Positions 52,252 through 53,443 of a stretch of 64,000 nt of DNA are shown piece after piece. The translations under genes were made by a program, and so were the position numbers. The first letter of the stretch is position 1. Every line of letters begins with the position of its first letter. The notes under the pieces are model-generated. The model was not told the origin of the DNA. It made no database searches and was given only the letters and a program-made list of their open reading frames with translations. This stretch comes from an uncultured Muribaculaceae bacterium (lineage in GTDB: Bacteria; Bacteroidota; Bacteroidia; Bacteroidales; Muribaculaceae): contig CAMWJS010000009.1 in assembly GCA_947174635.1 (NCBI GenBank), forward strand, positions 1 through 64,000, written 5' to 3'.

Positions 52252-52260
52252 GTAGACACC

Positions 52261-52311
52261 TGCACCGTATCCGTCCGAAAAAGTCGGCCTTTTTCGGACG
52301 GATACGGTGCA
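52261..52311. repeat. 22-bp perfect inverted repeat / hairpin
   Basis: TGCACCGTATCCGTCCGAAAAA-GTCGGCC-TTTTTCGGACGGATACGGTGCA. Confidence 0.9.
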
Positions 52312-52410
52312 GAAACTAAACTTTGCGAAGGTGTTGCAAAACTCGATTTAGTGGTCAAAAGTAGCTGCGAATTGTAGAGGCGCGATTTATTACTTAAGGA
52401 GCGACGTCAG

Positions 52411-52656
52411 AGAGCCGGGAGGCTCGGGGGCTACTATTAACCGGGGTTCGGAGACCGCAGAGCGGTTGCAGCCCCCGGCCATAAACCCAGCCGCCCAATA
52501 GGCCCCGGAGGGGCGGTTTGTGGTTGTAAACAAGCCGGTTACCACACTCCGCCCTTCCCGGGCTCAGGAGATGATTGCTACCGGTTACCCCGGTCTGCGC
52601 CCGCTCCGCGGTCTCCGAACCGGGGTTAATAGTAGACCCTCAAGCCTCCGGCTTTC
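52411..52656. repeat. Family B long palindromic element, copy B1
   Basis: AGAGCCGGGAGGCTC...ATTAACCGGGGTTCGGAGACCGC...GCGGTCTCCGAACCGGGGTTAATAGTAGACCC...GCCTCCGGCTTT. Confidence 0.9.
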
Positions 52657-52670
52657 AGATGAAGTTATGC

Positions 52671-52749
52671 TTAAGTAAACAGCATTGGGGCGCGGTTCAT
52701 CGCGTCCGCATCCAGATGGTATAACACGCTAAATATCATATCCATAGCG
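52671..52749. repeat. Family C element fragment, copy C1
   Basis: TTAAGTAAACAGCATTGGGGCGCGGTTCATCGCGTCCG shared with C2; right arm missing. Confidence 0.75.
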
Positions 52750-52775
52750 CGGGGGGTGTTGCAGAACTCCAAAAC

Positions 52776-52856
52776 GTAGGGACGCACGGCTCGTGCGTCC
52801 GCAAAACAGCGCTGATTATCAGCCTTTTACCGGACGCACGAGCCGTGCGTCCCTAC
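52776..52856. repeat. 81-bp nested-palindrome element, copy A3, inside an outer inverted repeat (52755-52774 / 52871-52890)
   Basis: 26-29-26 architecture; outer GGTGTTGCAGAACTCCAAAA / TTTTGGAGTTTTGCAACACC. Confidence 0.95.
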
Positions 52857-52928
52857 ATCGCAAACCGAAATTTTGGAGTTTTGCAACACCCTCAAAGATA
52901 AGAATGAGTTTTGTAACACCCTCACGTC

Positions 52929-53045
52929 TTAAGTAAACAGCATTGGGGCGCGATTCATCGCGTCCGTGCTATAGTGAGATAAAGCGCTGTATATCACAAT
53001 GATAACGCGTATGCATTGGGACGCGGCCCAATGCTGTTTACTTAA
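52929..53045. repeat. Family C element, copy C2 (24-bp terminal inverted repeats)
   Basis: TTAAGTAAACAGCATTGGGGCGCG (52929-52952) vs CGCGGCCCAATGCTGTTTACTTAA (53022-53045). Confidence 0.9.
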
Positions 53046-53060
53046 CGGGGGTGACATCAG

Positions 53061-53307
53061 AGAGCCGGGAGGCTCGGGGGTCTACTATTAACCGGGGTTC
53101 GGAGACCGCGGAGCGGGCGCAGACCCCGGCCATAAACCCACCCGCCCAATAAGCCCGGGAGGGGCGGTTTGTGGTTGTAAACGAGCTGGTTACCACATAC
53201 CGCCCTTCCCGGGCTCAAGAGATGATTGCTACTGATTACCCCGGTCTGCGCCCGCTCCGCGGTCTCCGAACCGGGGTTAATAGTAGACCCTCAAGCCTCC
53301 GGCTTTC
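53061..53307. repeat. Family B long palindromic element, copy B2
   Basis: arms 53087-53125 and 53243-53281 near-perfectly inverted; inner arms AGCCCGGGAGGGGCGGTTTGTGGT / ACCACATACCGCCCTTCCCGGGCT. Confidence 0.92.
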
Positions 53308-53321
53308 CGATGAGATTATCC

Positions 53322-53340
53322 TTAAGTAAACAGCATTATA
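53322..53340. repeat. Family C end fragment, copy C3
   Basis: TTAAGTAAACAGCATT. Confidence 0.7.
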
Positions 53341-53443
53341 TAGCGTCCCTACAAATTAGTTTGTATATTTTGAGTTTTACAACGCCTCAATTAGTAAATT
53401 CCAGTTGGTTACAAATTGTAACCAACTGGAATTTACTAATTGA

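Follow-up and report, generated by a model that had tools for sequence, protein, structure and literature searches.

The repeat island between the convergent nuoN and CoA-transferase genes of an uncultured Muribaculaceae bacterium is very probably a nest of non-autonomous mobile elements, in which IS4-type mini-elements with a REPIN cargo are inserted in REPs, inside an A-type mini-element. A preliminary description of the window (the entire analysed stretch of 64,000 nucleotides) had divided this region into three interleaved palindromic families, A, B and C. All the pieces that it named are present in the interval 52327-53345, exactly where it placed them, and the interval indeed contains no transposase ORF. 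The repeats are real and highly multi-copy, and chance is excluded. With up to 2 mismatches, the end sequence TTAAGTAAACAGCATT occurs 4 times in the window compared to a mean of 0.00 in shuffled sequences; in the genome assembly (2.9 Mb, 123 contigs), it is found in 107 copies compared to 2 for the reversed control, and the A end in 225 copies compared to 0 in the control. Family B is represented by 86 matching pieces in the genome, both orientations counted. Beyond the window, the sequence sampled consisted of stretches around the matches and of contig ends that bear the repeats.

Layout of the island

The family C, previously taken for a separate palindromic family, is no unit of its own, and its ends are the 18-bp terminal inverted repeats CAATGCTGTTTACTTAAG of the B-carrying elements. 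Almost all B copies the borders of which are intact show the order CAATGCTGTTTACTTAAG - B - CTTAAGTAAACAGCATTG, and orientation identifies CAATG as the outer end of the 18-bp repeat. Given that the C ends face outward from the neighboring B elements, the possibility that C is an independent element with its own ends is ruled out, and the core of C2 is the DNA between two adjacent elements. The ends of C2, which had been described as 24-bp perfect repeats, differ at one base (TTAAGTAAACAGCATTGGGGCGCG vs TTAAGTAAACAGCATTGGGCCGCG); they are imperfect because 18 nt are transposon end and the remainder is REP sequence. The TTAAG at both borders of B also raised the possibility of a TTAA-type (piggyBac-like) target, which was rejected because TTAAG is part of the 18-bp ends, outside which the duplicated 10 bp are located. 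The CAATGCTGTTTACTTAAG/CTTAAGTAAACAGCATTG ends bound other cores as well, both in the same genome and in other genera, so that the link of B to these ends is one of association. Three such cores of 290-390 bp (L116, L049 and L178) resemble paired long folded units, with the order of hairpins as in B and other sequences; these are perhaps REPs of other RAYTs.

The whole island is bracketed by an A end on the forward strand (GAAGGTGTTGCAAAACTC, 52327-52344), a member of the family of 225 genomic ends, and its inverted partner on the reverse strand (GAGTTTTACAACGCCTCA, 53372-53389), which form the left and right borders of the enclosing A-type element. The left border is followed by the left half of a GTAG-type REP (GTAGAGGCGCGATT, 52374-52387, forward strand), which is the landing site of B1 and a target seen across the family. 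End matches and comparison of the flanks delimit B1 as an IS4-type mini-element (52388-52687, forward strand), with the left 18-bp end eroded to TTACTTAAG (52390-52398) and the right end CTTAAGTAAACAGCATTG at 52670-52687. It encompasses B unit 1, a folded RAYT-type REP recognized by profile search, alignment and fold (52409-52524, forward strand), and B unit 2, which was detected by profile search in inverted orientation and completes a tail-to-tail pair (52541-52657, reverse strand). The next segment, 52688-52752, is the inside of a GTAG REP pair (GGCGCGGTTCATCGCGTCC...), that is, C1 minus the transposon end; it is cut off by A3 and has a complete relative in L116. The A3 mini-element (52754-52891, 138 bp) has ends GGGTGTTGCARAACT around a GTAG REP pair and shows an inner inverted repeat of 31 nt and an outer one of 21 nt. 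In this type of REP pair, which forms both the core of A3 and the landing sites, a GTAG head is followed by a palindrome and the two copies are inverted relative to each other (GTAGGGACGCACGG...CCGTGCGTCCCTAC).

To the right of A3, repeat comparison reveals an additional nested A end (GAGTTTTGTAACACCCTCA, 52906-52924, reverse strand), and end matches identify the right end of another IS4-type mini-element (52928-52945, forward strand), the body of which has disappeared or given way to A. This remnant is separated from B2 by the interior of a second GTAG REP pair (52946-53028), equivalent to C2 minus both transposon ends. B2 is an IS4-type mini-element of 310 bp (53029-53338, forward strand; ends CAATGCTGTTTACTTAAC and CTTAAGTAAACAGCATTA) with 97-98% identical copies at C85 and in the genome G005. 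B2 contains unit 1 at 53059-53175 (forward strand, profile search) and the inverted unit 2 at 53192-53308 (reverse strand, profile search and alignment), and it is followed by the right half of a GTAG REP, recognized by reading of the sequence (TATAGCGTCCCTAC, 53339-53352, reverse strand). B1 and B2 share 93% identity across 261 nt; the arms of B2 span 58 nt and are 93% complementary, and those of B1 span 68 nt and are 78% complementary.

Just outside the island, there are perfect palindromes with arms of 24 bp and 28 bp (52260-52312 and 53387-53443), for neither of which a further copy was found among the loci fetched. The window also contains additional GTAGGGACGC REP pairs (18217-18297, 20588-20668 and 58021-58101).

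With regard to the A-type elements, A3 consists of the GTAG REP pair inside the ends GAGGGTGTTGCARAACT, and other copies in the genome are 97-99% identical to it. The 17-bp A end is located beside an ORF encoding a fragment of an IS1182/IS5-like transposase on a contig from a viral collection (L343), and the same sequence is present on L327; no transposase linked to the A end was identified within Muribaculaceae. An IS1182/IS5-type origin of the A ends is thus a lead, not a family assignment.

IS4-family ends, target duplication and landing sites

A scan for the 18-bp end across 84,980 species genomes identifies two loci (L296 and L277) in which an ORF of ~440 amino acids fills an element of ~1.45 kb with the identical 18-bp end. 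Each of these elements is broken by a contig end just short of the second terminus and is without one end. The encoded proteins match pfam profile PF01609 at 1e-14 and 1e-12, respectively, above the cut-off, and, among the NCBIfam models, that of the IS4 family, NF033592, fits the L277 protein best (E 1.4e-28; 100 bits, below the curated cut-off of 115). The identical 18 bp are found on L296, L277, L257 and on contig ends of Muribaculaceae Isolate-013 and Duncaniella sp. SC0308_comb_2, with one end only in each case. In the latter two genomes, the ends run into contig breaks together with the start and the finish of the gene, a pattern to be expected of multi-copy elements when assemblies are fragmented. 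A copy with both 18-bp ends and an intact gene on a single contig was not seen among the genomes scanned. The autonomous element with matching termini, for which the preliminary description had proposed to search, is thus represented by IS4-family elements of relatives that each show one end. Viral contigs searched for the C end yielded only single scattered matches, and a tblastn search of plasmids with a C-terminal transposase peptide yielded no match.

B1 and B2 are ~300-310 bp long, encode no transposase and share their termini with each other and with an element that encodes an IS4-family transposase (PF01609, NF033592). These features are those of MITEs, and B1 and B2 are accordingly annotated here as MITEs of an IS4-family insertion sequence. 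The assembly of the same genome contains 0 matches to the corresponding IS4 transposase, keeping in mind that a multi-copy element can drop out of an assembly this fragmented; the present activity of the elements is therefore unproven. Two PF01609 transposases that are encoded in this genome (L159 and L167) were considered as the potential partner and rejected, as they belong to an unrelated element with other ends. In four of the IS4-family loci (L192, L203, L257 and L277), a hairpin is located just inside the left end of the element, and a further copy of its sequence stands at the beginning of the transposase gene (GCGGACATGGCCGC ... GCCATGTCCG), where it may act as a brake on translation.

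Target duplication was analyzed in 46 non-redundant elements bounded by both ends. In 10 of these, the 10-mers on the two sides are identical, and in 19 (the 10 included) they differ by at most one mismatch, compared to a mean of 1.6 and a maximum of 5 with 9 or 10 of the 10 positions matching when left and right flanks of different elements are paired. Perfect duplications of 7, 8, 9, 11, 12 or 13 bp are found in 0 of the 46 elements. Thus, the IS4-type family makes a fixed target duplication of 10 bp. The copies in the window come without a clean duplication: 8 of 10 positions agree between the flanking 10-mers of B1, with its eroded end, and 5 of 10 between those of B2. In G005, which is another species, a 98% identical B element is located inside a REP and is flanked by the perfect 10-bp duplication GGACGCGATA.

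The outer flank resembles either half of the GTAG-tagged REP in 65 of 103 distinct Bacteroidales ends compared to 0.8% of positions drawn at random from these loci, and the empty sites, when rebuilt, mostly turn out to be GTAG-tagged REPs (e.g., GTAGGGACGCGCCA/TGGCGCGTCC in Duncaniella and GTAGGGTCGCGGCA/TGCCGCG in G163, the slash marking the junction). In Bacteroidales, the elements thus land mostly in GTAG-tagged REP hairpins. In Gammaproteobacteria, several flanks resemble, by eye, terminator hairpins instead. The stem lengths of the rebuilt empty sites were of no use as a criterion, most probably because the control windows are hairpin-rich themselves, and the flank count was used in their place.

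Other loci present what appear to be simpler or earlier stages of the same process. In L032 and L036, an element resides in the right REP of a pair and is flanked by a perfect duplication; in L035, both REPs of a pair are occupied. In L003, L019 and L122, there is a single element, the two flanks of which are the outer halves of both REPs, an arrangement that would fit recombination between two elements with deletion of the inside of the REP pair. It is these exchanged flanks that point to recombination between copies. The proposal in the preliminary description that non-autonomous elements landed next to or into each other is borne out by the IS4-family ends, the 10-bp duplication, the REP sites and the ~107 ends in the genome. 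The proposed activity of the island finds no backing in the assembly, which is devoid of a matching transposase, and a hot spot as a property of this particular site is not indicated either, given that many sites in the genome look alike.

B units as probable long folded REPs beside RAYT genes

A profile search identifies 60 distinct B units. Among 40 distinct aligned units, 93.4% of the cells in four helices are paired, and 36 cells are changed on both sides with the pair kept, compared to 10.4 in shuffled alignments; thus, the main stem is CCGGGGT/ACCCCGG in some units and CCCCGGT/ACCGGGG in others. The B sequence of the window consists of two such folded units of ~117 nt each, arranged tail to tail in inverted orientation, and the fold is conserved. 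An Rfam scan of the window detects tRNAs only, with no family matching the island.

The covariation, together with the location of the island between convergent genes, could be taken to indicate a structured RNA or terminator region that is selected at this position, with the palindromes acting as bidirectional terminators or mRNA stabilizers and mobility being incidental. This interpretation appears very improbable considering that the units are scattered over dozens of unrelated loci, where they come with transposon ends and target duplications, that no such sequence follows nuoN in the relatives, and that none of the Rfam families matches.

Free single B units that lack the 18-bp ends are present in G001, G005 and G007 as well as in the window itself (20836-20951, near a GTAG REP pair with A ends at 20553-20690). 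In G005, five B units surround a gene for a Y1 (RAYT-type) transposase with the HVH motif, and G007 encodes a RAYT that is 64% identical to that of G005 and is followed by a diverged inverted B pair, with GGGCC-GGA-GGCCC where most units carry GAGCC-GGA-GGCTC. The RAYT genes adjacent to B units thus come from these two related genomes; no RAYT close to the B-linked ones is found in the assembly of the genome under study. The head of the B unit is GGAG in most of the free units and AGAG or GGAA in many of the transposon-borne units. Among the 41 genomes searched, B is present only in this genus. Judging from the sequences, the B pair has the anatomy of a REPIN with its RAYT, with units far longer than known REPs, and the action of the RAYT on B is putative. 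Another Y1 transposase gene in the same genome (L135, G000:C46) adjoins repeats of a different family (GATGCC..GGCATC, ATTAACCCGGTCATGG) in a layout similar to that of B.

The location of B units around RAYT genes and the REPIN-like layout of paired inverted units are also compatible with the view that B and C are REP/BIME repeats spread by the RAYT (Y1) only, with the C ends being part of the REP and no IS4-type element involved. Under this scenario, which we consider very improbable, it would be hard to account for the free B units without 18-bp ends and for the fact that these ends bound unrelated cores as well as an IS4-family gene and come with a 10-bp duplication. Y1 transposases of the IS200/IS605 kind are not known to duplicate their target.

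Gene order, origin of the nest and related systems

In the five relatives in which the region is readable, nuoN is followed by another conserved gene, without any repeat. An identical arrangement in all relatives combined with the absence of copies elsewhere, which the preliminary description had named as evidence against mobility, was accordingly not observed. In four stretches from relatives, the CoA-transferase gene is absent within 12-19 kb downstream of nuoN. In the genome under study, the gene that follows nuoN in the relatives starts 596 bases into contig C2 (L351, G000:C2:1-720); A and C repeats belonging to the families found in the island make up the first 237 bases of this contig. 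The island thus marks a break in gene order that could result either from recombination between repeats or from an assembly misjoin. In the latter case, which would be compatible with the nest model, the local arrangement would be partly misassembled and the adjacency of nuoN and the CoA-transferase gene would exist on paper only. The different gene after nuoN in the five relatives, its presence close to the beginning of contig C2, preceded by A and C repeats, and the many contigs of this assembly that end inside the same repeats are what a misjoin would produce, although genuine recombination between repeats would look identical. Given that the repeats and the nested order recur at other places and that B1 and B2 differ by 7% and so are not one copy counted twice, we regard misassembly as rather doubtful, although with an appreciable chance of being correct.

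The nest probably formed as follows. The outermost A-type mini-element (ends GAGGGTGTTGCARAACT) carries GTAG-tagged REP pairs (REPINs), into the hairpins of which IS4-family mini-elements (18-bp ends CAATGCTGTTTACTTAAG, 10-bp duplication) inserted, with B, a second kind of REPIN, as the cargo; further A-type elements, such as A3, would then have inserted within the nest. The B elements would be moved by an IS4-family DDE transposase acting in trans, with a preference for GC-rich hairpins, and the B units were probably spread at first by a RAYT. Homologous recombination among the many copies would reshuffle the flanks.

In several unrelated genomes, the same 18-bp end encloses REP pairs: GTAGGGACGCACCC pairs in a Bacteroides MAG (Mgla), GTAGGTTGGGC pairs with perfect 10-bp duplications in Sulfuricella, pairs in Cellvibrio and, in a Pseudomonas, GTGGCGAGGGGGCTTGCCCCC, in which the core of the group I REP of P. 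fluorescens SBW25 (GGGGGCTTGCCCCC) is embedded. Cores other than REP pairs exist between the same ends as well (e.g., the AT-rich 103-bp element of Duncaniella). A comparable case is that of the MIC231 cassettes and IS231 of Bacillus, in which, as here, IS4-family ends that finish in ...ACTTAAG surround unrelated cargo and GC-rich symmetrical targets are preferred; in MIC231, however, the cargo consists of genes and the host belongs to a different phylum, whereas here the cargo is a folded repeat.

REPs are known targets of insertion sequences, including an IS4-family case, ISRm22 of Sinorhizobium meliloti, which makes a 6-bp duplication and for which hybrid target duplications have been attributed to recombination (Tobes and Pareja 2006, PMC1525189). 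The present elements resemble ISRm22 in that an IS4-family element lands in REP hairpins and exchanged duplications are explained by recombination; unlike ISRm22, with its 6-bp duplication and its own transposase, they make a 10-bp duplication, are gene-less in the window and carry cargo that is itself a REP pair. As in REPINs and RAYTs (Bertels and Rainey 2011, PMC3116915; Nunvar 2010, PMC2817692), two inverted folded repeats are separated by a short spacer and have relatives beside a Y1 (HUH) transposase gene, but the B units, at ~117 nt with several hairpins, differ from the known REPs of 20-40 bp, and many of the pairs are located inside IS4-type ends. A passage in a 2013 study describes REP dimers inside longer palindromes and mosaic, interleaved intergenic repeats in Neisseria (Di Nocera 2013, PMC3733652). 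The island shares with these GTAG REP dimers the enclosure by other inverted sequences and the interleaving of repeat families; that passage ties the enclosing palindromes to no transposase, whereas the enclosing repeats here carry IS4-family ends and a duplication.

Thus, insertion sequences that target REPs are already known, but IS4 mini-elements with a REPIN core in several genera of two phyla look like a new variation on these; a literature search that had most subscription journals outside its range turned up no paper in which IS4 mini-elements carry REPINs. We tentatively suggest, at somewhat short of an even chance, that such mini-elements form a widespread class, in which a RAYT repeat serves as cargo and like repeats as landing sites, so that nested islands are built jointly.

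The prevailing view of REPINs is that their RAYT moves them and that inheritance is mostly vertical. If they also ride IS4-family elements, this would provide a second, faster route between sites and species, and the B element of the sister species, 98% identical and flanked by a perfect target duplication, fits such IS4-borne spread. For annotation, the ends serve to recognize the A, B and IS4-type families, which makes masking or typing possible. If the proposed scenario is correct, it would explain the nested palindromes between genes of these gut bacteria, at which assemblies break, and would offer a testable case of mobile elements using each other's hairpins as targets.
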